This document shows, in pieces, positions 26-64,000 of a stretch of DNA of 64,000 nt. This DNA is from Hesseltinella vesiculosa (lineage: Eukaryota > Mucoromycota > Mucoromycetes > Mucorales > Cunninghamellaceae). Position numbers and translations under genes: made by a program. How positions within the stretch are numbered: position 1 is the stretch's first letter; each line of letters begins with the position of its first letter. The notes under the pieces were generated by a model, which saw only the letters and a program-made list of their open reading frames with translations, was not told the origin of the DNA and did no database searches. The stretch covers positions 248,001 to 312,000 of the forward strand of contig MCGT01000026.1 of the NCBI GenBank assembly GCA_002104935.1, in the 5' to 3' direction.

Positions 26-895
26 CTCGTCAAACAATTCAGGCTTTTCTTGGAAGAGACCAAACGCCTCGTTGCCTTCGGTTGTGTAGAGCTTTTCGTT
101 CAACCACCGGAATCGTGCACCCGACAGTTTTTCCTTCATCTTCATTTGAAGTTTGGTCAAGCCCGCTGCCTTGCCAGAAGGCACCTTGGGCTCTTCGACT
201 TTGGGCTGTTCTTTGGGTGTGCTGCGCTTTTCCTGCTGCTTGGGCTGGGGCTGTTTCTTCTCGACTTTGTTGCCTTTTTGCTTCGCCAGGAGCTGTAGTG
301 CAAAACATAAATAATAGCAAAAAAAAAAAAAAAAAAAACCAGCGTGAGTGACGCTGCCGCGCTTGTCGTTTCCTCATACCGCTTTCAATTGGTCTTTCTT
401 GCTGGCATCAGGCTTTGCTTTTTTGGCCGTGGGTTGCTGCTTCACAGGCTGCTTGCTGTTTGGCTGTTTCTGATTGTTGGGCAACACGTCATTCTTTTTC
501 GACGTCTGCTGTTGTTGTTTCTCTTTGGGCTGGTCCTTTTTCTTGTTCGATTGCTTGGGCCGATCGTCCTGCTTCTTGGGTGGGGTGGCTTGCTTGGGTG
601 TGGCCATCGGTTGCTGCTTTTCAGAAGGCTGATCCTTCTTGATCTTCTTGTTCTTGGATGCATTGTCTTTGTCCAAGGTTCGCTTTCTGTTGCTCTTCTT
701 GTCACCATCCTGTTGCCGCTGCTTCTTACTCTGTTTGGGCGTGATCTGTTGAAGCTGAGCTTGCAGTTTGTCGGCTTCTTTGGTGGCCTGGGCGGCAGAA
801 ACATCGTCAGACGCAGGCTTACGTTTCTTTGTAGTAGACTCGGCAGCAACGTGGGTAGGTAATGACCATCCTGGTGTTTGGAATAGCGGCTGCAT
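26..895 (-). CDS. RRP8: Ribosomal RNA-processing protein 8 (rRNA m1A methyltransferase), 5' part, cut by window edge
   Basis: Two coding exons are visible, 895-380 and 292-26. The second ends at a GTAGGA donor, so the gene continues leftward out of the window. The start at 895 gives MQPLFQTPGWSLP, close to the 'LFxxxGWS' opening of Rrp8. A long Lys/Gln-rich disordered stretch follows. Exon 2 ends in GARFRWLNEKLYTTEGNEA, the conserved block that precedes the Rossmann methyltransferase domain. The catalytic domain itself lies outside the window. Rrp8 is a nucleolar enzyme that makes N1-methyladenosine in large-subunit rRNA. An upstream in-frame ATG at 985 would add only Lys/Phe homopolymer and was rejected. 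The identification rests on the N-terminal motif and the FRWLNE block. Confidence 0.85.
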
Positions 896-1018
896 GGTAG
901 TGAAGATCAAAACTAGCAAGCGAAATGAGGAAAAGAAAAAAAAAAAAAAGAAAAAAAAATCAGCCTTTTTTTTTTTTTTCTTCACCTAATTCTTCTTTTT
1001 CTTTCCCCGTTAAAGATC
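896..1018. promoter_or_regulatory. Divergent promoter between RRP8 and the CCDC43-like gene
   Basis: Only 123 bp separate two divergent start codons (895 on minus, 1019 on plus). The spacer holds poly-A then poly-T tracts around 930-985 and a pyrimidine-rich leader before the plus start. It must carry both promoters. No TATA or named factor site was recognised. Confidence 0.5.
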
Positions 1019-1966
1019 ATGTCTGATCTTGTCGATCAAGTTGCTGAAGCATTGAAGGCCATTCAACTCAAAGGTAAATCATGAAGATCATTCACACAGC
1101 CCGAGATGCATCACCTATAAAAAAATGTCACGCCCTTCTCACCCTCAACATGCTACTGCTCCCGGTCCTCGGTGTCCATCATAGACGATGATATTGCTGA
1201 ATACATTGCTGGCATTGTAGAAGACAGCACTATGGATGACGATGAAAAACGAGACGTCATTCGAGAATTCCTATCGGAAACGACAGTAAGGGTCAACCCT
1301 CTAGACTAGCCCCGCTTTGCTCACGACCTATTTTTTTTATGGCACCCTCTAGGACCGGCCAACGGACGATCTGATCGAATCCATTCTGATCAAATCAAAG
1401 GAGCTGCAACAAAAAGAGCTGAAGGAGGCACAAGAGCGCAAGGGGAAAGAATTGCAAAAGGCCCATGGTAAGAAATGCACCCTGAAGCTGCCTGAAACCT
1501 GAGTTGGCATGGCAACGCGAGACTGACGGAGATCGCCTCGCACTCTTTGATTAGAGCTGGAAAAGCAGCGCCTGCTGGAATCTGAGAAAGAACGTGAAGC
1601 ACTTGCCAAGGAGGCTGCTGATCGAGTGGCTGCCAAAGAGCTCTCTGCCGAGGATCGCCGCCGACGCGAACAACTAAGGAAGCAATACGAGAACGTCGAT
1701 GACCGTGGCCACGATGGCAAGTGTCGTCTTTCTTTACGTACCTAGCTAACAACCCATGTCATTCTGCCACAGGCGACCTGGAACAAAATCTAAACGCTTC
1801 AAAGGTCAAGGAAAAGGAACGGCTGCGACTAGCAGAGTCGAAACAAAAGAGCGAAATGGAAAAGGAACGCAACAAGATGCTTCTAGAAAAGCAGCGCCAA
1901 CAGAAAACCGACAAGGATGCCGAGAACAAGAAGAAAACAGCCAAGAAGGAGCGCAGACGTGTTTAG
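1019..1966 (+). CDS. CCDC43-like coiled-coil protein
   Basis: Five exons (1019-1073, 1185-1285, 1353-1467, 1555-1716, 1773-1966) give 208 codons in one frame. The N-terminus contains an acidic helical segment (DDDIAEYIAGIVED). The C-terminal half is highly charged coiled coil (KEKERLRLAESKQKSEMEKE) ending in KKERRRV. Length, order of parts and the '(K/R)QYENVDD' linker match the CCDC43 family, which is conserved in eukaryotes but poorly understood. Intron 4 has a GC donor (GCAAGT at 1717), and only that choice keeps the frame. The function is unknown. The gene is divergent from RRP8. Confidence 0.75.
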
Positions 1967-2028
1967 ACGTTAGAATATCATAAAACTCACCAAGACCTAT
2001 TAAACTGCCTGGACCTTTGAGAAATTTA

Positions 2029-3010
2029 TTACACGTGCTTTTCTTTGATCATTGAATAGAAAAAGTAGTGGAATGCGTCGCCCATGGTGGTGGTCTTGAT
2101 TTCCCAGCAGTCGCGATTTAGTAGAGGTTTTCGGAAGTGAGGCTGGCCAAACGTGATATACAGAAACAGGCCGCCCATCTTCAGGACACGCGCCACTTCA
2201 TCCACTTCCTTTTTGACCTCAGACACCACTTCTTCTCCAGGATTCCACTGATCCTTAACGCCTCTATATAAAAAAAAAATAAACTGGGTGAGTCACGGTT
2301 AAAATCTACAACAGGGAACGTTGAACGTTTACGTGAGAAGCGCATCCATCGTTCCTGAAAGAGAGAGGGGGGGGGGAGATCAATCGGCCAGTGAGTGAGT
2401 GACAACTCCTCTATTTTCAGTTTTTACAGTGAGCTTTTACCTTTGTCAATGACCACATCGAAAGATTCCGTATCAAACTTCAAGTCTCGGATGTCCATTT
2501 CCAGCCCTGTAGAAGAAAGAGGGAGGTTCAGTGGATGTCTTGCTTGGGACAGTCTTACAAGTCATTTCAGGCATATCAGCACATCGATCCTTCATGTTGT
2601 CAACGACTGTCTTGGAATAGTCGATGTTGGTGATGTTTTTGTAGCCATCACGATACATGTCTTCGCCTAGAGCTAAGAAAATCAGGCAATGGACCACAGT
2701 TAGCTGGCGGTCAAAGAACGATCGTTTCTACAGCGGTGCGCAGCATCACCTACTTGAGTTACCACAGCCCAGAATCAAAATCGAGGCATCCTTGTTAGGA
2801 ATGTGTTGATCGAATAACACTTTTAACTCATCGTAAGTCTTGAACCAATCAAAGGTGGTATTGAGATCTTCTCTGTAGCGAGAGGTAAGTTGCCTGGATC
2901 ACGATTGTTTAACTGAACACCTACTGTTTATAGCGTTCCTCCCAATACTCCTGTGTTCTGTAGGCAGTGGGATCTTCGGGAACGACTTCCAATGATGTTG
3001 ATGCAACCAT
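2029..3010 (-). CDS. EEF1AKMT4-type protein methyltransferase
   Basis: Six exons (3010-2925, 2872-2754, 2672-2559, 2506-2441, 2354-2333, 2263-2029) give 213 codons. It opens with EYWEERYK and DWFKTYDEL. The SAM-binding motif I is ILILGCGNS, followed by NITNIDYS (motif II), SFDVVIDKGTMDALL (motif IV region) and VARVLKMGGLFLYITFGQP. This order is diagnostic of the eEF1A lysine methyltransferase 4 / METTL13-like group. The expected role is cytosolic methylation of a Lys on translation elongation factor 1A. Exon 5 is only 22 nt. The substrate is inferred from family membership. Confidence 0.82.
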
Positions 3011-3637
3011 AATTAATTTATCTACCTTTAATGAGGATCAACACTAGAAAGACAAAAAAAAAAAAAAATAAGAAAAAAAATCCCAATCCAATTTCATGTC
3101 CGACTTGACCTGCTTGAAACTGACATTCCCTTTCTGCGCCGATCAACCACTTGGGGCAAAAGACATCTGATGTTCGTTGCTATGAAACAGAGCAGGGTTG
3201 GCGGTGAGACTCTCAGCCGAGCATGACAAACGGTTGGATAACGAAATTCTGACAGAATTCTCTCCGAGCTGGGCTGAAGCTGTCAGACGCTCTTTTTTTT
3301 GCCAAGTTGTGTTTAGACGCAAGTCCTAAGCAACCCGCTTTGTCTTATTTGTTGTCTGATGGACATTCCATCTTCAAAAGATATGCTGAAAAGACGTCAA
3401 GGAGTACTGTACGCGCCGGAGTAGCTGAGAGCTGGGCGGGAAGGTTTTCGTCGCCGTCTCGTATTGTTTTACATGGTTACCATCTTTCTTTTTATTTTCT
3501 GTCATGAATGCAGACCGCACTGCCCGGTTCTCATACCCGTGATCAAGGTAAACATGTTTCATTCACTCGTGAGGGTTTGTTTATTTTCAGTGCTAGAGGT
3601 ACAAGCATGGAAAAAAAAAATTAAAAAGGTATCAAAT

Positions 3638-5433
3638 CTAAGAGCTGGCTGGATGAAGTTTTTGTTGCTGTTCCTCGGAAAGAGAGTAGCCACCATCGAC
3701 CAGCAACATGGGGGTAGACTCTGCAGTGAACGAGAAAGAGTAGGGTAGGTTCTGTCCTTCGCTTTGGGCATCCGGCGATGTTTCGTCCTGATCCAGGAAG
3801 GTGTCGAATTCGTTTTCCAGATCAATGTCGTTGTCATCGAGTCGTTGATGAACCTTGTGTGACGCATCAATGTCTTCGAGCTGCAAGGATTCTCGCTGCT
3901 CCAACTCCAATTCTCGCCGCGTTCGTACCGACACAGCATGGATCTTGAGCCAATTATACAAGCCAATGCCAAACAAGGTCACGCACAGACCAACAATGTT
4001 GACGACAGTCAGTCGATCGCCGAACACGAGAGTCGATATAAAGATCGTTGCCACTTCCTAAGAAGGACATGGTTAATGTGCCCTCGCTTTACTCCGTGCT
4101 TGATTTTACCTTGAAAATACCACACACGCTCAGCGTCATCACTGAGGTCCGTTTGATCAAAAAGAACTCAGACATGATCATGCAAAACGCTAAAGCACCA
4201 CCAGCTAAAACAATTCCGATCTGAAAGAAACAAGACAGTCGTTCAGCGCTTTTTCTAGCCTCCCGTCATGGCTCCGAGCTTACCGTGTGCAACCCTTCAG
4301 AAACGGTGACAAAAAAGACGCTGTGGAAGATGGTGCCATAACCTTCGACGATGCTGGAGATGATGATCAGAATGATGGCCTGGGCTGGTGCTAAGAAAAA
4401 GATAGAGGCGAACGGGTTCGTCAAGCCCATGTCTTCCTTGCGCAAAAGCACCTCGGTCAATGCCCATCGCAAGCCGCCAAATACAGAAGCAAACATCACT
4501 TGCAGGAACCTACATACAACCCAAACATCAGTCGCGGTTACCAGGATGTCATTTTCTTTTCCTTACCCAGCCCAAGCAAATTCCGTTTCATCAGACACCA
4601 TCAGTACGACGCCAGAAGTAATAATGACAATGATGCCTACAAGGCGGAAGCTTGGCCGTTCCAATTTGAACGCAAACGCGAAAAGAAGAACAAAGGCTAG
4701 CGTGGACGATTTACACATGGCTACAATAAAAAAAAAAGGTTAAGTCGTCGGTATCGTTGTTGTCCCATGGCATTTACTATAAAAGGACAAGGTGATGGTT
4801 TTCAGGGACAGATTCGAGAGACCAATATCCAAACTGGTTGCCAGCGCGCAGGGAAGCACTTTGAAGCTGCAAATGAACAAAACAACGATCAGACCAGGCT
4901 AGAAGAAATGGGTTACTTGCATGTAGTTGTTGACGGTGGGGCGAGACTTTGGTCGTAATGACGGGACAAAAAATAAAAAGGTGCCGGCAAAGCAAAACTG
5001 GACAATCATATGAACACTGGTGACAAAGAGAGGGTATTGGAAGTTGTAGTGCTCGGCTGAAAACATCCATTTGTTGTACACTGATAGGAACGTAGCAAAC
5101 TGAAAGAAAGAGAGCACGAGTAAAAAAAAAATATATATCTATACTGTCAAGGCAGGAAGCTTACTATGTACCTATAGACATAAAATAAAAATGAATAGGG
5201 ATGGTAATGGTAGGTACAATGGCTTACCAAGTGAGAATCCAAAGGACATTGATGGCACCGGATTTCAACAGGGCATTGCGTCGTTGGTGTTTTAACTGGT
5301 TGGATACTGACGGCGGTAAGGGGAGCAGCTGATCCCTGTCACTGTGTGTATGCGGGTCCAGGGGCTCCATTTGAACATCATCGTTAGACTCTAGATGGTC
5401 TGTCGAATTGGAAGAAGTTGATAATCGGCCCAT
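3638..5433 (-). CDS. SLC35C2-like nucleotide-sugar/triose-phosphate family transporter
   Basis: Eight exons (5433-5228, 5171-5165, 5099-4921, 4866-4778, 4720-4567, 4509-4284, 4220-4110, 4057-3638) give 463 codons. A roughly 60-residue Ser-rich cytosolic N-terminus precedes about ten hydrophobic segments. Landmarks are WYIFATFLSVYNKWMF, ATSLDIGLSNLSLKTITLSF, MCKSSTLAFVLLFAFAFKLE and LRWALTEVLL, typical of the drug/metabolite superfamily member SLC35C2 (yeast relative YMD8). A Golgi or ER membrane location is expected. Substrate is unknown. Exon 2 is only 7 nt and intron 3 is GC-AG (donor GCAAGT). Both are required to keep the conserved motifs in frame. An acidic C-terminal tail follows the last membrane segment. 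Confidence 0.85.
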
Positions 5434-49664: not shown

Positions 49665-52600
49665 TCAGATGTGATATCGTTCTTGAAGGGCAGCACGGAC
49701 AGGTGGTTGGAGAGAGGCAAGGCCTTGCTGCCATTGCTGCTCGCCAAACATGTTTTTATAGCCCATGAGAATCTAAAGAGGCAAAAAGGGTCAGATGACT
49801 GGGCCCCTCCAAAAAGTCGTCACTTACGTTGCCAAAGGATTCGTTCAAAGCAGGAGGTACCAAGTGATAGTCTGCGATGGCCACACACAAATGTGGGAAT
49901 GCCTGTGGAAAAGGAAGAGGGCGTCAGCAAACCCAGCACCAGTCACTTTCCTCCCTTTTTTTTTTTTTATGATCTTACCTTGACAGCCCCTTCAGGGTTG
50001 GCCTTGATCATTTCACACAACCCACTGAAAGCCGAGGCCTTTTCTTCATTATCACGGACAGGAGACATGTGTTCCAACCAAGGATGGACAAAATTTTCCA
50101 AGTGAGGGGCAACCATGCCAGGGCACACCAAGCCGATGCGACCGATGGTGATGGCCACGTTTTCGCCCAAGGTGCGTTGGAGTTGAGGGGTGACCATCAA
50201 TGGGAATAATCGTTGTAACATGTGTTCAACATAGGGCTGGATTTCCGACCCGAGCTTGAGGGTGATTTCACCCGCAGCCCAAGTGGCGTTGTTGCAGACA
50301 GACACAAATGTGGCACTGGGGTCGATTTGTTGAATAAGGTGAGGCATGAAGTTGGGAAGGACGGCACGGATGTGTTCGAAGCAGGAGATGGCAAGATCAC
50401 CCAACAAAGCATAGGCAGACTGACGTACTTCAGGCACGTCATCCTAACCACAGAATAAATAAATAAATAAAAAAAGCCTTCCCGTCACCCTCGTGTCTCC
50501 GGTCACTTACATTGATACACATGGGCAGGAATTGGACAACAGGAGGGTTGGTGTTGGCCACTAATGGTTCAGCATCGGTGTTGAGGGCTTGTACAATGCC
50601 AGACAACAAATCCAAGGCGACGACCATGTAATCCTTGTCGGGTTCCTCAGCGCCAGGTTGATGAGCTTCTTCCAGAGTCTTGCACACCAAGGAGACACAT
50701 CGGTTGTACACAGGCTCAGCAAATGGCTTGAAAGCCTTGCCGAGGGCAGAAGTGACGGATGACAGGCACTACAAAAAGATAATACCGAGGAGGGGGTCAG
50801 GTATGTTTTTTTTTTTTGCTATGGCCACGAATAAACTTACCTCCAACAATGGGAAAATATCGGGATCATCGTCAGGAGTAGATTGCCATTTAGCAATTAA
50901 TGGGGTGATGACAAGTTGGATGTATTCGGGCGTGTTCAAGGCTTCGCCAACAACATCAGCCAACGTACCCAAGGTGTCGTAGAGCAAAAGCAAGTTGCGG
51001 TGCTGATACTTTTCAAAAGCAGTCGACAGGGTGACCAGGATGGGTTGCAAGTAAGGCACCAAGTCTTTGTCGGCTTCTTCTTCGAGCAAAGAGAACGAGG
51101 AGCAGGCGGCTTCTTGCACACGTTTGTTGTTGTCCAGAATGCGTTGCAACATCAATTGCACCAATGGTTCTAAAAAGGCTTTGCGAGCTTCTGGACTTTG
51201 GCGGCTGGCCTTGACAATGAATTCGGCATAGCGGCCCAGGGTCCAACAAGTGATCGAGCGCACCAAAGGCTAAACAAAATCCGTGTGAGCCCCTCCATCC
51301 TCATCTCCATCTTTTTCCAATGTCACCTACCTTGTTGTGGCTCAGTTTGCTGAAGAGATAAGGGATCAATTCAGGAAGGTGAGGAGCAATGTGAGCCGAG
51401 CCACCTTCAGCAGCAGCACCAAGGGCCAAGATGCCACATTCTTGATGCATCCAGTCTTGGCTTTCTAATTCAACTTTGAGCATGGGCATCAACACATTGA
51501 TGGCTTCTCCTTCAAAGGCAGTGCACATGACGTCCAAAGCGGCAGCACTGCACTTGCGCAAGTTCCAGTCGCCGTAAAAGTCGTCGTCATCCAGGCCAAA
51601 GTCATCGTCGTCTTCGTCTTCGTCGTCCTCATAGTCATAGTCACCGCCTGCCTTCTTGGTGTTTTCATCCAAGTCGTTCTTGTCCGCACGTTCCACTTCG
51701 ACCACAGCGGCCTTGTGGAAGCGAGGCTTGATATCTTGTTCGCTGTCGGCCACGTGCGCATCGTCATCCATGGCGCTGATTAACAAGGGGTCGGTTTCGG
51801 AGTACACCATGCACTTGAGCAAGACAGGGATCACCTTGGACAGATAAGGCGACAGCTGAGGACGCAGAGCATCTTGTTCGGCAAACACCAGCCAGAATTC
51901 ACAAGCTTCCAGTGCAAGGTCTTCGTCGTCGGATTGGGTGGAGAAGAGCATGTATTCAGCGAGATTGTTCATGTGAGGCAGGATGTGTTCAGGGCAAGTT
52001 TCCAAGATGCTGACAAGGGCCTGGCACACAGCCTTGCGCACCTCCACATTGTCGTCCGTTGCGCGGTTGAACACACCGCTCAAAAAGTCGTTGATTCGTC
52101 GCATCAAAGGTTCTGAGCGCAGAGTGATGAATTGTTGTACAGCGTTGATGGCATCCAGGCGCAAGTGAGGGTTGGGATGTTCGAAGAAGACGAGGAATTT
52201 GGGGATCATGAATTCCAAGGGTTGAACGCCATTGATGGTGCTATCCAATTCATGGCTACAGTCTTCACAAATTCGTTTCAGCGTACCGAGAGCTTGCTAC
52301 ACATTGTTATTTTTTTTTTAAAAAAAAAGTGGGTGGGTATTCACACTGATTGACAAAGCAAGCGTGGGTCTTACAGTGACGACAGAGGGCGAAGGATCGT
52401 CCAATTTTTCTAACAACACTTGAAGGCCTTGGGGCCAGTTGTGAACTTGACCACGAGCCATGATAGCAGTGATGACCAAGCTGACAGCGCGACCAATGGT
52501 TTCATCGCCAATGTGCTGCAAGCAGCATTCCTTGATATGATCCATGATTTGAGGAGGGATTTCGGGATAGTAGGATCGAATGTTGTTTTTCAATGTCAAG

Positions 52601-52941
52601 CCAGCCACCGACCGAATATAAGGTTCTTCGTTCGGCATTTGGGTCAGAATATACACAAGATATGAGTTGTAATCAGGGATCTTGTTAAAATATTCTAGTC
52701 GCTACTCACCATCCAAAAATAATCATGTCAGTCATGTAAAGTTATGAAGCCAAAATCAAACCAAAAAAAAAAAAAACCCCCCTTCATCTCCTCTGGCCAA
52801 GCCTTTATTTCTCATTTTCTATCTCTTTCTTAACGCAGACGTTACCTCTTGTACATTGGAATTGTTGGTGGGATTAACAGCTTCACGCAAAAGTTGCAAA
52901 AGGTCGGATAATCCTTGCTCCGAAGGCTGCCAGGTACTCAT
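49665..52941 (-). CDS. KAP104: Transportin (karyopherin beta-2)
   Basis: Eight exons (52941-52846, 52701-52375, 52296-51331, 51269-50841, 50768-50511, 50443-49979, 49902-49828, 49772-49665) give 907 codons, near the family length of about 900. HEAT-repeat landmarks match transportin-1: an acidic H8 loop ([20 protein letters not shown]), [60 protein letters not shown] and [14 protein letters not shown]. It imports PY-NLS cargoes such as hnRNPs through the nuclear pore. The junction of exons 1 and 2 seems to lack a few residues relative to relatives, so a tiny exon may be missed there. Confidence 0.93.
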
Positions 52942-53788: not shown

Positions 53789-56700
53789 ATGCCACCCGAC
53801 TCGATAGATCCACCTCCAGTCATCAGGGACACTCGCTGCGACGCGTCCAAGAAGTTTGGCTCCTTCAATGGTGGCTTGCTGCTGAAACGAATCACAAAGC
53901 CTGCCACCGACCTAGCCAACCTTTTCCAATCTAGGCGCAAAACTTCTGAAACACAAATCCTCTCCCGTCAGCCACCACCCTGGCTTACTAAAGCCCCTTC
54001 CCATCTGGATGCTGCTCCTCTCAAATACCGCAAGCTACAAAACGGAACACGTACCCGCTGGGATGTCCATGACGAACAGGACAAGTCGCCTATTGATACC
54101 GCCTCAACCCGCAACACGTCCATCCCTCGCTTTGTATATTCTGACGACATTTGCCTATCTTGCTACCACGCTTCTCTGGATCGCTCGCCCTTGGACCCGG
54201 TTGATTTGTGCTTGGCTTGCCAAACACCTTGGCAAGTGTGGCCCAGGATTTTTTTCTCCAGCCTTCAAGAGCATGGCAGTCCCATTTCACCTGTTGTCCA
54301 GCCAGCCCCTGCCACCACCCCCACCTCCACCCGCAAGGAAAAGGTTGTGCCACCCACGCAATCCCGTCAAGCAATCGCCATTGCCAAAGACCAAACGCCA
54401 TCCAAAACACACCAGCCGCCTGCCTCTGATCACAGCTACACCTTTGGCCAAGCTGTCCAAGTTTTAAACATCAATGGTCACTGGTATCCAGCCTCGCTTG
54501 TGAATATCGATGGCCACAAGGTCAAGGTCCATTACCAAGACTGGGACGATCAGGATGAATGGATCATCATCGGGAGCCAACGTCTTCGGCCCGCCCCTGT
54601 CACCGATACCCCAGCCAAACCCAACGACCTGGAATCGCCTTCTCGTGCTGTACAAGCGCCTGATCTTTCCGACGACGACGATGGCCTCTCGGACTTTTTG
54701 GACGAACAAGGTTTGCTATTTTTTTTTTTTTTTTTTTGTCTGTGTGATGACGTTTGTACACCGACGCTGACTTTTTTTTATTTTTTTTTTTTACCTTTCC
54801 TCTTTTGTAGACTCCTTTGTAGCAGGCAACCCAACTCCATTGATTCCCGAGGCAAGAAAGTCGGATTATGTTAGCTCGACACTCGACACCGATCCCACTC
54901 AAATCCTCAATGCTACCGATGTGCTGATGACTCGCCGCATGGTCAAGCAGATGGTCGATGAGCATGGTTTCCGACCCAACTCGTTTGGTTATCATTATGG
55001 CCGTGGCGTGGCTGTAACCTATGATACCATTGGCCAGGATGTACAAGGAGGAGCAAAGAAACGGCAGCAGATGGAATGGATCGGCTACCTACGAGAAATG
55101 AAGCAAGATCAGGTCCGTGTGTGGTTCCCCGACTCGAAGCAAACGGATTGGGTCCGGTGTGGCAGTCGTCGTATTCGTGTCCTGACAGACAAGGAGCACA
55201 CCGACTATTGTGCTCTCGGCTATGATATCCACGGCGACGTTGACCTGAAGCGAGCTTCTAAAAAAAAGCCAAGACCAACAAAGCAAGCCTCTGTGCCCAA
55301 AAAGCCCAAGTCGAAGCAGCCGGCAAACTCCGAAGAAAAGGAAAGTCAGGCGCCAGCCTCCTCTGCGATCGACGCTGATGGTCACCTGCACGCAGCCGAT
55401 GGGCAACCTCAGCAATCCTCTCCTGCACCAACAGCTACATCAGCTGCAGCAGCACCCGACGACTCAGCCTACCAAACAGCCCCGCCTGCACCGACGTTGA
55501 AAAAGCGCCCCGACAAGAAGAAGCGAGCGCCCAAAAAGAAGACAGACTCCTCTGTCTCGCCTGCGCCAAGCACACAGAATGCCCCTTCAATCAAACCCGC
55601 CAGGGCCAAGCCTGTTTCCGAGCCCGCCCCTATACCTGCCTACACAACCACTGGCGCCTTTGCCACTCGTCGTGCAATGCGCCAATTACAGGACGAGCAT
55701 GGTTTTGTTCCCAACCCCTATGGCTACGAATACAACCATCCAGTTGAAATCCTCAATACTCGCTCATCCAAGCACGAGTACTTTTGGGAACGCGGTCACT
55801 TGGTGGCCATGAAGCCCGGCAAGGTCTGCGTGCGCTACGATGGCTGGGCTGTCGAGTACGACGAATGGTTCATGGTCGGCAGTCGCCGGATCCGTCTTGC
55901 CAGTCACCAGCCAGCCGGCGAAGTCTTGGACACCAACACACCCAACCCTGACCCTGACCCACCGCTTCTATCTCAGTCTTTGTCAACCGCACCTGCGCCT
56001 GAGAACGCCAGTGCATCGGCCGAGGCCAGCCAAGAGCTCTTTTTGCTGACGGAGCTCAACGCCGAGGTCAAGGACGAAATCCGACACCAGCGCAAACGTA
56101 GGATCCTTGGTCCCGAAGATTACCACCGCCTGGGCATGGTCGTGTCTGTGGAAGAGCTACAAGCCAAAGAAGAAGCTCGCCTGCGTCGCAAACGTAAACA
56201 CTTGCCCGACCAACCCAGCAGTCCCAACCTGGCCGCCGCCGACCCGACCCAAATGGCCCTCACGAAAAAAAGGAGCCGCGCCAATCCGTCAGACGAAGCC
56301 CGAAAAAACATCAAGCGAAAAAGGCAACCTCGAGCACCTTGGGAGCAGCATGACTCCGACAACGCGTCTACCACCGACCCGTCGTCTGAAGAAGAGCTGG
56401 AGGATGAAGACCAAGGTTGTGACGAAGACCAAGATGCTGAGATCAAGCATGGATTTGTTGCCAATGTATATGGCTATGACTACATGCAGCATGTGCAGGT
56501 CCTCCATCTTGACAAGAAATGGTACGAAGCTCGCCTTCTGCTGCTGGATCGTAACCGTGTCAAGATCCATTACTGTGGCTGGCCTGATCTCTTTGACGAA
56601 TATGTAGCCATTGGCAGCCGGCGCCTGCAAGTCATCGAAAACGACCACGAAGTAGAGTGTGCCGAGTCTCATTTCCAGCAACGTTACGAGGATTTGGTGC

Positions 56701-59209
56701 GCAACAAGAAGCACAATGACCCAACCAAGATTGCCAAGAAGCCAGCCAGGACCCCAAGGCCATTCAAACTTCGCCGCTGGACCCTCAACGATGTGAATGA
56801 AGGCGATTCTGATGAAGAAGAAGAAATCACAAAAGGTACAGCAGAGACTGAGTAAGAGTCAGCCACGGAAGGATGACGTTTTTTTTTTTCAATTTCCCAG
56901 TGGTATGTCAAGAATGCCATGTGACAATCAAGCAGTTCCGATATTACTGCACGTACTGCGAAGCAACATCTGAAGCTGACGAAGACGATGTCCATAACCA
57001 GGACTGCAAAAAGAGCTTTGACTTGTGCCTTCAGTAAGGCGTAAATTCCAGCCCTCCAAAACGCTGACTGACTTTTTTTTTCTTTTTTTTTTTCCCTGGG
57101 GTTTAGGTGCTTTGATCAAAACTTCCCATTCTGGCATGAACATCCTCGTTCAAGTTTTGCCGTGCAGCCAGTGATCAATACCGATATTGGTCCACGACCG
57201 ATCAAAGGCGAACTTGTGACAGTGTGGGAAGAAGACGTGGTCGAGCAAGACAGCCTGCAGACCCAAAACCCATCGGAATCGGTGCCTGCAGCTTCAGATT
57301 CCGAGCCTGTTGAGGATGAGGATCGTAAATCCAGCAAGAACCAGCTCGAGGCTAGTCAAATATTCACAGGTGGTGATGCTGTCGACCGTGGCCAAGGCTA
57401 CCGCTTCCTCAAGCAATGGCATCGACGAAAAGTGTGTGCCTTTTGCAACGACGACGACGACACCTCCGAAGATCTGGGCAAATTCATTGGCCCGTTTGTC
57501 ATTACGGTGGTCAACAAGAATGGTGTTATGATCAAACGTACTTTTTGGACTCACGATGCTTGTGCACGGTATTCACCTGAAGTCTTTTGCACCCCTGACG
57601 GCAAATGGTACAATGTCACATTGGCATTACGCCGTGGCCGCAAAGTCGTAAGTGAACCAACTGCCTGCAGTGACCAAGGAAAAAATCCTACATGCCAACT
57701 CAACTTTACCGCCCTTCGGTAGAGATGCACTGGTTGCAAGGAAAAGGGTGCCACGATTGGATGCTTTGAATCAAAATGCCACAAAAGTTTCCATCTCCCC
57801 TGCGCCCAGAAACCCGTCAACTATTTTAAGAACGGTGTGATCTTTTGGTGCCCTACCCATGAAGCCTATTACAACAAGATCGGTAGTGTTCCAACCGTCG
57901 ACAAAATGATCTCATATCGAACTATTTTTTTTTTCGATAGACACGTATGTCAATGTCTTCCACTGTGATGGCTGTAACAAGAACATGGAAAATGAATCGT
58001 GGTACTCCTGTGTTCCTTGTGCAACCAGCTACTTTTCATCCTTTGACTTGTGTGCCGAGGTAAGCGTCAGAAAGAACGAGCAGGCAATTCTGGGCTCACT
58101 TTTTCTTATTTGCTAGTGCTTTGATAACTTTCCTGAACACCATGCGCACGACAAGGACCATTTTGAAGAGACTTGCAAGTGCCAACGACATCCAACCTTC
58201 TAGCAAATGACCTTACTTTCCATCTTCTCCTAGCTCTTGAAATCATCAAGGAAATGGAAGCCCAAAAAGCCACTGAAGCGGCGCGTGCCAAGGAAGAAAT
58301 CCGCGAAAACAGTAAGTGGATCTGAAAAAGACGCTAGGTTGTGCCGAGCCTCCAATTTTTCTTTCCTGTTTTCCCGTTCAGATGCCAAAGCCCGCATTCG
58401 ACCGAAATTCCTCAAGCGTCGTCGTCGCCGTGCTGATGGAACACTACCTGTCAGCTGCTGCTATTGTGGGACGCAAACGGCTGACGAATGGCGCAAAGGC
58501 TACGACGGCGGCGTTCTGATGTGTGCACCTTGCTACGACCTTGCCCTGCTAGTGGACAATGATGGCAAAAAGAATCATGATGCGGTTGATGATGACGAGG
58601 AAGACCAGCCTGGCGACAGCAGCAACTATTTTATTTACCCACCACCTTCCAAGGATGTCTACGGAATGGACCTCCAAGACCAGTATGTGTCCTCGATCGA
58701 TGACTACACTCACAAACCTTATTTAACACGAGACGCCTTGTCTGCCACCAAGTTCAGTGATTCCATGACCGGTCCTCGACTAGCCACTTACGAGCCTCAG
58801 CCAAGCCAATACTTTTCGTTACTCTTTGATTCCACTTACTACGACATCCCAGGTCGAGCTCCTCGATGGGCGTCTCATTCCGGAACGGACTACCATGGAA
58901 CGTGGCTACCTCAAACAGTTAGGAGGTAAGGCTGAAAGGATGTGGTGTATGCCATTGTTAGGGCTGTGGGTCACCGCCTCACGATATTTTTTTAGGGCAC
59001 TTTTGCTATACACTCGTGAAAATGAACGAGTCTTATCTAATTTCCTTGGCCGGGGTACCAGCGCTTATTCGATGTGTAGAGCTATGAATTGATGTATTTA
59101 TTCATCTTGCATAGGTACCGATGCCATTGAATGCTTCCTGCTGAAAAGACGGTACGACGTCCAAGATCCAGAGTGCACCCGACCTACAGGCTAGCGAGCA
59201 CCTACTCAC

Positions 59210-59243
<34 letters not shown>

Positions 59244-61215
59244 AGCTGTTGCGGTATTGATATCAATCCGGTAAGACATTCATCATCAGTATCAGAGAGC
59301 CATCAGAAAACAAGGTGCTCAACATGATTATTTCAGGCGGCTGTGGCGCTCTCGCAAAGAAATTGCTGCTTTGAACTGCCAGTGGGGATATCTGAGGCTA
59401 AGTATAGACCGATTGTTGCCCAGGCAGATGCAAGACGCCTGTCCGGCTCTCTCTTCGCCGACGAATCCTTCCATCACATTCTATCACATCCTCCCTACAA
59501 GGATTGTGTCGCCTACTCTTCTCATCTGGAAGGTGATTTGTCCCGGTGAGTTTCCGGCAGTGGAAAAAAAAAAGTTGGTGACCAATTTTTCTCGCTGACA
59601 CTCGATTCTCTTTCCTCTTTACATTTATTTGATTCAGATTTACCAACATTGATGATTTTAAAGAAGAATACGAAAATGTAGTCAAAGAAAGCTGGAGGTA
59701 ATCAGACGACACACCTTACCAAAGCACGGCTTACCCCCCCTTTTTTTTGTGCAAAGGCTTCTGAAAATGGGGCGTCGTGTGACCTTGGGCATTGGTGATA
59801 ACCGAGAGCATTGCTATTATATACCGGTGTCCTTCAGCCTGATGCGTCAATACATTGATGAAGGCTTTGAATTGGAAGAATTGGTAGGTCGTATGCGGCT
59901 GTCTCACCGTCAGGCCATCTTATTTCTTCTCAAATTAGATCGTCAAAAGACAGCGCTACTGTTCTGCATTTGGACTGGGAACCTACCTTTGTGTGCAGTT
60001 TGATTTCCTCGTGTTCACACATGAATTCATTGCAACATTCCGCAAGATCCCAAAGGAAAACGTCGACCGTATGGTGGATATAACGCGTAAGCTCCTCATG
60101 TCAAAACTGTGAACCCCGCTAACTTTTTTCGTCCTTCTGTCTAGCCACCACAGAAGAAAAAGTTGCCGAAAAAGTAATGATCAAGCAAACGATGCATGGG
60201 ATCCCTCCTTCAGCCATTTCTCGCAAGAGCGTTGTCATGGGCACAGTGTGGATCTTCAAACCAAACGACAAGTATTCCTTCTCGAAGCTCTGCATCTCTC
60301 GCATGGTTGAGCGCTTTGGAAGGGATGACAGCAACTGGCTGCACTTGGACATGGACTTCCTATCCGCTGACGAGGTAAATCCATGGATTTTTTTTCATGA
60401 ACACATCCAACGCAAACTTTCTCTTTTTCAAGGCGGAACCACCTCAACCAAGCCATACCCTAACCGAAGTGACTGCAATGGATGACGAAAATGATGAACG
60501 TAAGCGTCAGGTGTTACGATCAAAGAGAAGCTGACGGCTCTGCTCCTTTGTTAGAACCAACCATTTCAAACTATGAAATGGATCGCCTAAAACGCATCGA
60601 AGAAAACAACCGCACACTGCTCCAATTGGTAAAATGCGCCCGTTCCCCTAATTTTTTTTTCTGACATCTACTTTGCTGCTTGTATTCAAGGGCCTGATCT
60701 CCGAGCTCAGCGAGGAATCTGACGATGTGATCCATTACGACACGATGATGAGCAAGCCTGTGATTGCAGATGCGCCGTTGTGGATGATGGTCTGCCCGCA
60801 CCAAACGTTAAAAATCAGCCAGATCAAAGTCTACCGTGAATCCGTTGTGAGCATGGCCAAGGAAGCTTGTCAGCGACTGTCCCCCAAAGGCTTGTTTGTG
60901 GTGGGCGCGCAAGACATCCGGGACCCCGATACCGGCAAACTGTGGCCACTGACAATGCTGGTACTCGAGGATATTGAACGTGCTGTAGACCGCTCGGTGA
61001 TGAAGCTGAAAGAACTGGTGGTGGCTGTGCCTGACGGATATTCTCGCGATCGCAAGCTAACCATTGCGGACGCCACTACCTTATATCACCAGCAAAATGA
61101 CTTTGAAAACATGCCAGTCCTTGTTGACGATGATGCCAACGCTGTCAACGCCAAGCAGCTGCATGACCATCTGCCCATCGTGCATGCGATCTACCTTATC
61201 TTCCAACGGTTGTAA
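53789..61215 (+). CDS. Giant chromatin-reader / DNA methyltransferase fusion
   Basis: Twenty exons start at 53789, 54811, 56901, 57107, 57723, 57941, 58117, 58234, 58382, 58996, 59115, 59246, 59337, 59638, 59757, 59939, 60145, 60433, 60555 and 60691. They stay in one frame for 2046 codons. Four chromo-barrel/Tudor-knot-like repeats lie at about residues 217-270, 361-431, 604-670 and 856-916, each ending like DEW(I/F)..GS(R/Q)R(I/L)R. Next come a ZZ-like finger (983-1050), an extended PHD (1137-1260), a second ZZ finger (1261-1320) and a GATA-like finger (about 1371, CCYCG..WRKG..CAPCY). The methylase follows: RWASHSGTDYHGTWLPQ, FLGRGTDAIECFLLKRR (motif I), GIDINP, LSHPPY (motif IV, about 1618), RLLKMGRRVTLGIGDNRE. 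It matches bacterial site-specific N4/N6 DNA methylases. A C-terminal part (LSPKGLFVVGAQDIRDP) resembles a second methylase half. Intron 7 is GC-AG. Location is presumably nuclear. Confidence 0.85.
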
Positions 61216-61561: not shown

Positions 61562-63215
61562 TTATTTTTCAAAGCGGATGGTGCAATCAGCGGAGGAGCA
61601 TTTTGAGCTTGAGATTAGTTCATACAGGGTTGGGTGGGTGGGGATCATGCGCGAGGAGATGGTGGAGGGGTCACGGGCAGGCCGACAAAGGCGCCAAAAA
61701 GCATCACTGACGTGGAGAAGGGTGTTGAGTGTCGACAGATTGACGAATGTTGGCAGTTCATTGATGGATCTTGGGAAGACCAGGTGTCCAATTTCTACCA
61801 TTGTGTAGATTTGCTGGTGAAGAAGCTGTGTAATGTAGAATGTAACCCCGAATCCTAAAATAAATCTTGTCAGCGAGTTGTCCTGGTCTCATCTCTCCAG
61901 AAAGCTTACCATGAATTTGGAATAAAAAACACCCATCAAGAGAGTTCATGTCGATACATTCCTTCGAAAACAGGGCTAGTCGAAGAAGGTCGTGGCAGAG
62001 ATCGTACTTGGAAGCATTCTGAATCTTTGCCTCCCCAAAGCCCAAGGATGATCCATACGCAAGCTGATTGATTTGGCTGATTATCGCATCGGGACGACGC
62101 TTTGGTGTTTCCGGTGCCATTGTATCCGACCACCGCAAATGGACTTTGTTCAGGGGATTTGCAATGATACGTGAAAAGATCGGATCAAAAAATGTTCCAG
62201 TCAGTTCATTTTCCCCAAGTGTGTTCTCGTCTTTGAGGTCGTCCATTGGCAGCTTGGCAATCCTAGTCGTTATGAAATAAATAGCTTTAGCAAGCGAAAC
62301 AACTTTTACTTCTTCTTCTCATTACATGCTGATGATCCCTTTCACAATAGCCTTTTTGAGCAAGGGGAGCTCGCTTGATAATTGGTGCAGTTGCAGCTCA
62401 GCAGTGTCCATTGCTGTATCCCGCTTTACACAGTCCAAGTTTTTTACGTCTTTGCTCAAGGTGTTTACTATTCTGGCCAGCTTGAGAAACTCACAATCTT
62501 GCCAGTCAAGAGCGGTGTCGAGGGTGCTGGACAATAGGGTGTCCGTAAGTTTATCAAGGTTGTCATTGCCAAACACAGAAGAGAGCCGTTTTCCGTGTTG
62601 ATTTCGACTGAGAAGCAGGATCCCAGTGACAGAGAGGATGTCATGCAATGAGCAGCCAATATCGAGAGGGGTACTGTCACCATGTTCAATGGATTGACCC
62701 TTGTACTTAGCAAATAGCTTGGCCACGTCCATTCCAGATACAATCCAAGGCGAGCAGGTTGAAACAATAGGTGAGGCATTGGGTGGTGTGGTTGGTGAGC
62801 TGGTGCCGCTTCCGTCTGATTGTTCATTGTTACTTGCGACTTCATCTTCCCCTGTTAGTGCTGACGTTTCAACGCGAAGCACAGTCTGGCTGAAGTTTAG
62901 ACAACTTTGGCGAGTTTCAAGCCGAGCAAGTTGGATTTGCTTTTTCATCCAAAATTCAGACCAATCAGCAGTTTGCTTCCAGGATTTCAGTTCACTTTTG
63001 AGTTGGCCAGACATGTCAGGTAGGTACCTCTTGATAATGTTATGGTAACGTTGGAGTGCTTTCGTTTTTACAAGAATACCATGATGCTCAACAAAACGCT
63101 TGCATGTGAGGCGGTCCTTATTGTCCACGCACCACTGTGCATCAGAAGGGAAGGATCGTCTACGTCTTTTGCGGGGTATTTCAGACAGGCTTATGCTTTG
63201 TTGAGAATCAGACAT
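61562..63215 (-). CDS. Uncharacterised protein with PD-(D/E)xK-like motif
   Basis: Three exons (63215-62326, 62262-61910, 61854-61562) give 511 codons. The N-terminus is basic (IPRKRRRRSFPSDAQWCVDN) and could be a nuclear signal. The C-terminal third reads RRPDAIISQ, then LGFGEAKIQNASKYDLCHD: an Asp, about 20 residues, then Glu-x-Lys, as in PD-(D/E)xK nuclease folds. It continues FQIHGFGVTFYITQLL and MVEIGHLVFP. I recall similar proteins as a repeated family in Mucoromycota, but this was not checked. Nuclease activity is an inference from the motif spacing only. It converges on the methyltransferase gene. Confidence 0.6.
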
Positions 63216-64000
63216 TGGATGACAGGGTAAAAAAAAAACAAGGAAAAAGAAAAACAACGCTAGGCAAACAGCTCTTCTTTTTTTTTTTTTTTGGTCATGA
63301 GCTTGGCTGACCAATGAATTCCAAGAATTTCTTTATCTATTTTGCCCCCCCCCCCTCCCCAAGTCTCAGTGGCGACATGTTTGCGAATTGTGACGTTTAG
63401 TTTTGGCAATGGAACGCAAACGGATTAACCCAAGAAGCCACTCACATGCTGTAAACTAGGGCAATATGGTTTTAGAAAGCTCACCGAGGAGGGATTCCTT
63501 CAATGAGACAGGCTGCGCCGCAACCACGTCAATTTCCCTCCCAGCAATCTCAGCATGCTAATGCGCGTTTGTCACCCTTCAAACTCTTCTTCTTCTGCCT
63601 GAGAGATATGTAATTTCAATCAAGCTCATTTATCATCGTTCTGTACGGATGTGAATTTATTTAGGGCAGCTTGCACTGTGGTTTTTGGTCAGTTCGCCTG
63701 GGAGTCCCCTGGGGAAATGGTATTTTTTAGGTGACTAGCGAAGCATCTGAGTCACCGCCAGATAGGTCCTCCGTCTTCGGCTCCGAAGTGGTAATCCATC
63801 ACTTTGGATGGCCAAGAATAAGGAATTGCACTAGAGTGGTAAGAGCCACATCAGAGCTTCAAGTGCATTGCTCTTAGAATGTCTTGCTGCATCACGTGTG
63901 TATAGGCCAAACATAAAAAATATTCCAAGCGAAGAGATACCGTAGGCTGTGTTTTGCTTCAAGTTCAAAATATTATCGGATGACAGTGGGTTCTAGTTGA
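63216..64000. other. Intergenic region at window end
   Basis: Contains a poly-C run (about 63344-63360), the leader of the minus-strand gene, and a 5' fragment of the R1 repeat. No gene was recognised. Confidence 0.4.
63674..63733 (+). repeat. Dispersed repeat family R1, copy E (5' fragment)
   Basis: CACTGTGGTTTTTGGTCAG followed by TTCGCCTGGGAGTCCCCTGG aligns with the start of copies A and B. The match ends after about 60 bp. Confidence 0.6.

Follow-up and report, generated by a model that had tools for sequence, protein, structure and literature searches.

We analysed a 64,000-nucleotide stretch of the genome of the Mucorales fungus Hesseltinella vesiculosa (contig MCGT01000026.1, positions 248,001 to 312,000; hereafter the window) and found in it a single gene whose product joins chromatin-reader-like modules to an amino-methyltransferase of Type II restriction-modification (R-M) ancestry; the protein is probably a chromatin-directed DNA amino-methyltransferase derived from a tandem prokaryotic R-M-type methylase. 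From the N-terminus, it carries four Tudor-type repeats, a ZZ-type finger, an extended PHD (ePHD) finger, a second ZZ-type finger, a GATA-like finger, the methyltransferase domain and a C-terminal degenerate unit (Table 1). An original prediction, made from the letters of the window, had held that 20 exons stay in one frame for 2046 codons, and splicing bears this out: the 6141 coding bases end in a stop and contain no internal stops, and the product is letter-for-letter identical to the deposited H. vesiculosa hypothetical protein DM01DRAFT_1409486 (P0001). Eighteen of the 19 introns are GT-AG; the sole non-GT intron, intron 7, is GC-AG with the donor GCAAGT.

Relatives were collected in searches that returned 157 proteins (the best 120 listed), then 76 and then 42, giving 227 distinct sequences, some of them prokaryotic. 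Each of the 116 relatives that reach 1300 amino acids contains Tudor, ZZ, ePHD, methylase and C-terminal parts, the order of the Tudor, ePHD, methylase and C-terminal parts is identical in every one of them, and 115 also have the GATA-like finger. Since the queries that gathered these proteins targeted the methylase and the C-terminal residues, the Tudor and ePHD parts were unselected in these relatives. A gene of 20 exons offers room for the splice model to have misjoined two or three neighbouring genes, but the deposited model is identical, the order is kept in all of the long relatives, and ZZ-ePHD-ZZ-methylase is already fused in the Rozellomycota protein P0226; we therefore reject misjoining as extremely improbable. 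The single fused gene is thus confirmed at the level of sequence.

Among the matches listed, the named eukaryotes are all fungi outside Dikarya, and include members of Mucoromycota, Mortierellomycota and Glomeromycota, Coemansia, Dimargaris, Syncephalis, Smittium, Basidiobolus, Massospora, chytrids, Hyaloraphidium and Paramicrosporidium; the last is a member of Rozellomycota by its recorded lineage. Mucor lusitanicus (P0031) and Phycomyces (P0197) each have a listed relative, and many of the relatives listed from the later searches are environmental sequences. None of the listed matches comes from Dikarya, at which no search was aimed. The shorter proteins of Paramicrosporidium (P0226, 798 amino acids) and Hyaloraphidium (P0217, 1194 amino acids) contain ZZ, ePHD and methylase parts and gave no match to the Tudor family profiles, so the Tudor repeats may be a later addition; P0226 also gave no C-terminal match at E 1e-3. 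The fusion itself would date to the base of fungi or earlier. Within the 27.05 Mb H. vesiculosa genome, a methylase-domain protein query matched only the present locus; a whole-genome PF01555 search returned no match, presumably because the exons are short. Matches to MT-A70, PF02384 and PF00145 are also present in this genome.

The methylase domain matches Pfam N6_N4_Mtase (PF01555) at E 1.8e-12 and is covered end to end by the PADLOC Type II methyltransferase profile PDLC03376 (14-249 of 249, E 1.5e-40). Two PADLOC profiles cover almost the entire domain, both of them for Type II methylases; NCBIfam gave weak matches only (best E 6.8e-5). Compared with a profile of 80 prokaryotic relatives, the fungal methylase aligned with probability 100 (E 1.8e-94, 39% identity), and the S-adenosylmethionine (SAM) motif I precedes motif IV as in the aligned prokaryotic members. 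These matches uphold the bacterial-type N4/N6 methylase of the original prediction, and structure prediction, which it had proposed as a check, returned Rossmann-type models for both the methylase and the second unit. Its placement of the methylase at residues 1490-1830 holds for fold and PF01555 match but not for extent, the methylase proper covering 1490-1742 and the remainder running into the second unit. In the best 120 of the 157 relatives, LSHPPY is kept in 119, DINP in 118, SNFLGRGTD in 111, GIGDNR in 120 and KRQRYC in 115; eight of the nine SNFLGRGTD misses were seen, and comprise two one-letter variants and six cases of gaps, truncations or unrelated letters.

The remaining C-terminal stretch forms a degenerate methylase unit that lacks the SAM motif and the catalytic motif. 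Its fungal profile (best over residues 1887-1983) matches the second half of the methylase in register (probability 78.9, E 1.6e-5). Against the prokaryotic methylase profile it reaches probability 77.3, where eight shuffles scored no more than 1.02 and four further domains of the protein no more than 0.30. In prokaryotic tandem proteins (n=11), unit 2 matches unit 1 with probability 97.7 (E 1.7e-12 over 162 columns; ten shuffles at most 1.61), between the TTTVW at its start and the HEYL-IF at its end, with gaps over the region of motifs I-IV. The fungal unit-2 profile also matches prokaryotic-type sequences directly, at independent E 1.2e-16 for P0224 and 2.1e-12 for L093, with others weaker, among them L125-L127 (4.2e-7 to 5e-5) and unit 2 of L096 (0.033 only); reciprocally, the prokaryotic unit-2 profile matches residues 1875-2008 of P0001 at 1.7e-8. 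The metagenomic prokaryotic-type proteins P0223 and P0224 consist of a methylase and a tail, that of P0224 being clearly like the fungal part. The degenerate unit appears to have been present already in prokaryotic tandem proteins before fungal uptake.

Phylogenetic analysis placed 19 eukaryotic-type sequences, environmental fragments included, in one clade with support 1.0 against 88 prokaryotic sequences, on a long stem of 1.22 substitutions per site. In a methylase tree of 68 taxa, fungi and tandem prokaryotes grouped at 100/100 and fungi alone at 83/98, and a two-unit tree of 39 taxa recovered the joint group at 100/100, fungi at 99.8/100 and the tandem prokaryotes as their sister at 87.2/93. 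Arginine 1703 is found in 13 of 14 fungi and 13 of 14 tandem prokaryotes; in 11 single-unit proteins, the four residues most frequent at the site, which account for 9 sequences, do not include it. The profile matches, together with the DpnII genes in 37 of 80 prokaryotic loci (see below), show the methylase to be of Type II R-M ancestry. The fungi are sister to all sampled tandem prokaryotes, which mix across phyla, and are nested in no one phylum; the trees favour no one donor lineage.

The known tandem set comprises P0223, P0224, L089, L093-L097, L108-L110 and L125-L127. Searches by phylum found tandems in 6 of 227 genomes from the phylum of L050 (a Thorarchaeota record), two full-length and one partial match (L110) in 400 genomes from that of L062 (Anaerolineae), and, at a threshold of E 1e-90, tandems in 3 of 392 genomes from that of L014 (Planctomycetes). 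At the same threshold, the phylum of L003 (Clostridia) yielded none in 398 genomes, its five matches being all single-unit, and that of L053 (Bathyarchaeota) none in 398, a result that shows little given the lack of a positive control. The seed records of these searches are metagenome-assembled, and misbinning is possible.

Identity between the fungal methylase and its best prokaryotic relatives is about 35-40%, and we examined the neighbourhoods of the best 80 of 568 loci. A D12 N6-adenine methylase is present in 50 of these and a DpnII endonuclease in 37, within 300 bases of the methyltransferase in 30; other families comprise a further PF01555 methylase (10 loci), PD-(D/E)XK (7), MutH-like (6) and another restriction-enzyme family (4), and 23 loci contain none of the six families sought. 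Since DpnII and D12 adenine methylase genes neighbour many of the single-unit relatives, the target base would more probably be adenine than cytosine. Among the best 12 matches each of P0151 to plasmids and phages, one relative reached 66% identity and the others 26-32%, some of them named DNA adenine methylase; the prokaryotic relative P0150 matches PF02384 at E 5.5e-6.

Several observations weigh against a DNA methylase of tandem R-M origin. For its ancestry, an approximately unbiased (AU) test on the methylase alone gave 0.92, and 0.08 for the alternative in which fungi join the Clostridial single-unit forms, which was represented by a constrained tree from a fast search and is not rejected; the fungal unit-2 profile found no match in two of nine tandem loci (L097 and L110); and no DpnII was found beside the tandem forms, most loci having flanks of about 1.5 kb or less; at L050, with 5 kb flanks, D12 is present and DpnII absent. 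For its activity, all 14 fungal sequences compared have serine in place of the motif I aspartate, which all 25 prokaryotic ones keep, and the fungal loop has three further changes, so that the protein might bind SAM differently or not at all. The usual catalytic motif is D/N/S-PP-Y, unlike the HPPY of this family, which is present in 83 of 88 prokaryotic sequences and, as a word, absent from the 12 listed of 146 literature matches. For its substrate, the solved folds nearest to the model are the tRNA methylases Trm11 and TrmN, which makes an RNA substrate possible. Lastly, deletion of metB in Mucor cut N6-methyladenine (6mA) by 70-75% and symmetric 6mA was undetected without Mta1 (PMC11258239), losses that would leave little bulk 6mA for the fusion enzyme in that fungus.

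The loss of the motif I aspartate, and the fact that one tandem unit is already degenerate, would suit a protein whose methylase is catalytically dead and has been retained for DNA binding or as a scaffold, so that it reads chromatin and writes nothing, like inactive MT-A70 partners. However, the near-universal retention of LSHPPY, DINP and GIGDNR argues against such decay, and motif I, though altered, is conserved in its new form and looks re-tuned rather than decayed; we consider a dead methylase unlikely. An RNA methyltransferase guided to chromatin, acting on nascent RNA, would accord with the nearest folds, yet fold likeness alone does not fix the substrate, the near-full-span PADLOC profiles are Type II methylases, single-unit prokaryotic relatives often lie near restriction enzymes, and Pfam detected no THUMP or other RNA-binding domain in the protein beyond a weak PUA_4 match in the Tudor region (E 0.11). 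This second alternative seems to us quite improbable.

The reader modules predicted at the N-terminus (four Tudor-like repeats with ZZ, ePHD and GATA-like fingers) were recovered by Pfam and family profiles combined. Run on the H. vesiculosa protein, Pfam detected Tudor_4/MBT at about residues 220-268 and the ePHD at 1176-1253, and did not detect the ZZ fingers, the GATA-like finger or Tudor repeats 2-4, which were detected with profiles built from 15 relatives. The nearest sequences to Tudor repeat 1 are the PHF20L1 Tudor and the L3MBTL MBT, and the ePHD is similar to those of KMT2D (E 4.1e-10) and PHF6. We take positions 233, 249, 252 and 258 to be the aromatic-cage positions; across 388 repeats in 123 of the 227 proteins they hold aromatic residues in 64, 97, 75 and 96%, respectively. 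Among these 123 proteins, 59 have four Tudor copies, 34 three, 20 two and 10 one. With Tudor/MBT similarity and these presumed cage positions, the repeats classify, by sequence, as putative Royal-family methyl-lysine readers. A CxxC...CxxC pair at residues 122-146 (54152-54226) lies outside every Pfam match and is unconserved in the 15-sequence alignment.

As a chromatin-directed DNA methylase, the protein would combine a catalytic half from a prokaryotic Type II R-M-type methylase, already tandem with one complete and one degenerate unit, with the ZZ-ePHD-ZZ fingers that it would have joined no later than the base of fungi. In favour of this reading are the R-M ancestry, the retention of HPPY and of the presumed reader cages, and the depth of conservation. 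The aromatic-cage Tudor repeats would hold methyl-lysine on histones, and the ePHD, ZZ and GATA-like fingers would supply contacts to histone tails and DNA. The degenerate unit may serve as a built-in pseudo-partner that holds DNA, while the active unit would flip the base and methylate its exocyclic amino group. METTL14 is a pseudo-partner of this kind, holding substrate for METTL3.

In the surroundings of the gene, three flanking-gene open reading frames (ORFs) were scanned for a restriction enzyme. One, upstream on the minus strand at 52318-52701 and diverging from the methylase gene, matches the importin-beta N-terminal family (IBN_N, E 6.8e-14); the other two, downstream on the minus strand at 61758-63332, have no Pfam match at E 0.01. 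An Rfam scan of the window returned nothing at gathering scores.

Some prokaryotic loci share further neighbours. Proteins of 368-384 amino acids, alike by inspection, are encoded beside the methylases in L089 (3107-4231), L095 (1985-3136), L096 (359-1504) and L061 (6381-7484); those of L089, L096 and L061 have a weak NucS_C match under the Pfam cut-off (E 0.0017 at best), that of L095 has none, and they are a candidate partner nuclease. A 450-amino-acid neighbour, again alike by inspection, occurs in L093 and L094 (both 3080-4429) and L108 (3088-4437), in the phyla of Thorarchaeota and Anaerolineae, with sub-cut-off Pfam matches only and no PADLOC match for the L093 and L108 copies. In L094, from one genome, a single-unit methylase gene (377-1291, minus strand) is divergent from the tandem gene (1468-3075, plus strand). 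The N-termini of P0223 and P0224 show, on inspection, a CxxC-H-H finger-like and a helix-turn-helix (HTH)-like stretch, perhaps a DNA-recognition part of their own.

Table 1 Features of the fusion gene, in positions of the window.
Feature	Residues	Coordinates	Strand	Basis
Whole gene, 20 exons, 2046 codons		53789..61215	+	Spliced model, identical to P0001
Tudor-type repeat 1, aromatic-cage positions present	217-268	54437..54592	+	Tudor_4 E 4.3e-10, MBT 4.6e-7; PHF20L1 Tudor E 1.9e-6
Tudor-type repeat 2, degenerate	~380-439	55026..55205	+	Cross-matched by other repeat profiles
Tudor-type repeat 3	~597-677	55677..55919	+	Family profiles
Tudor-type repeat 4	~849-923	56433..56657	+	Family profiles
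ZZ-type finger 1, across introns 2 and 3	980-1046	56826..57164	+	Family profile; ZZ1 profile also matches ZZ2
Extended PHD finger, across intron 4	1128-1256	57408..57869	+	Pfam zf-HC5HC2H E 3.2e-9; KMT2D, PHF6 chains
ZZ-type finger 2, across introns 5-7	1260-1320	57879..58235	+	Family profile; sub-cut-off Pfam ZZ E 0.0064 in relative P0071
Intron 7, GC-AG		58175..58233	+	Splice model
GATA-like finger	1366-1402	58441..58551	+	Family profile; PF00320 precomputed in relatives P0073, P0120
Amino-methyltransferase domain, across introns 9-15	1490-1742	58813..60067	+	Pfam PF01555; PADLOC PDLC03376; structure model
SAM motif I SNFLGRGTD, across intron 10	1541-1549	59036..59122	+	Motif alignment
Catalytic motif IV SHPPY	1617-1621	59484..59498	+	LSHPPY kept in 119/120 relatives
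Degenerate second methylase-like unit	~1779-2046	60234..61215	+	Profile comparisons, tandem prokaryotic relatives, model and fold comparison

We hold it evenly balanced whether the fusion is a further DNA-methylation writer of early-diverging fungi, apart from MTA1 and MetB: a tandem R-M-type methylase captured no later than the fungal root and linked directly to methyl-lysine readers, a single polypeptide that would convert a histone mark into one on DNA, perhaps at sites or on a base (N4-methylcytosine, 4mC, included) missed by bulk 6mA surveys. The presence of reader and putative writer in one conserved protein makes chromatin aiming of fungal 6mA directly testable, with members in Mucor lusitanicus and Phycomyces, and the family exemplifies the very early fungal uptake of a restriction-type methylase, one whose degenerate half is traceable to prokaryotic tandems. 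Adenine-methylase genes have already been deleted in Mucor (PMC11258239).

Compared with known systems, the similarity of Tudor repeat 1 to PHF20L1/PHF20 Tudor and L3MBTL MBT domains is one to chromatin readers. To our knowledge, none of these proteins is fused to a DNA methylase. The likeness to the RNA methylases Trm11 and TrmN is one of fold only, THUMP being absent from the Pfam matches of the fusion protein. A survey of eukaryotic adenine methylases by Iyer (BioEssays, 2016) reportedly exists that may already list the fusion family, and we discount our claim of novelty accordingly. As the original prediction had supposed, no description of such a fungal fusion, which appears real and conserved, was found in the literature searched, including the accessible portions of PMC8885841, PMC12695648, PMC13297926, PMC8298701, PMC11065753 and PMC11258239, a body that does not cover key surveys.

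Among the other fungal DNA adenine writers, MetB (PF02384), traced to bacteria, and the MTA1 complex differ from the fusion in family: the candidates metA, metB, metC and Mta1 correspond to PF05175, PF02384, PF05063 and MTA-70, and PF01555 is not among them and is absent from the main text of that report (PMC11258239). The fusion protein itself gave no match to MT-A70 (PF05063) or to MetB (PF02384) at E up to 1. The bdelloid rotifer N4CMT, which the original prediction had offered as a parallel, likewise pairs a prokaryotic amino-methylase with a Royal-family reader and embodies the reader-writer idea, but it is of a permuted class with SPPY, has a single C-terminal chromodomain and represents a separate acquisition (PMC8885841). 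Kinship with N4CMT is rejected, as motif I precedes motif IV here, the catalytic motif is SHPPY rather than SPPY and the reader is different; in the C-terminal part no chromo family matched at E up to 1, the only chromo-like match being a weak one to MORC2 at residues 219-267. The proposed interpretation is partly supported: the fusion of readers with a bacterial-type methylase stands, and N4CMT is a reader-writer analogue of another class. The Type II R-M amino-methyltransferases, many of them DpnII-type (PDLC03376), are like the fungal domain in whole-domain match, motif order and HPPY, whereas they measure about 200-550 amino acids, lack chromatin readers and keep the motif I aspartate where the fungal protein has S-N-F-L-G-R-G-T-D. 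The prokaryotic tandems of the Thorarchaeota, Anaerolineae and Planctomycetes records have, on inspection, a short finger or HTH-like N-terminal leader in place of eukaryotic readers, but they share with the fungi a complete and a degenerate unit, and they are sister to the fungal clade.

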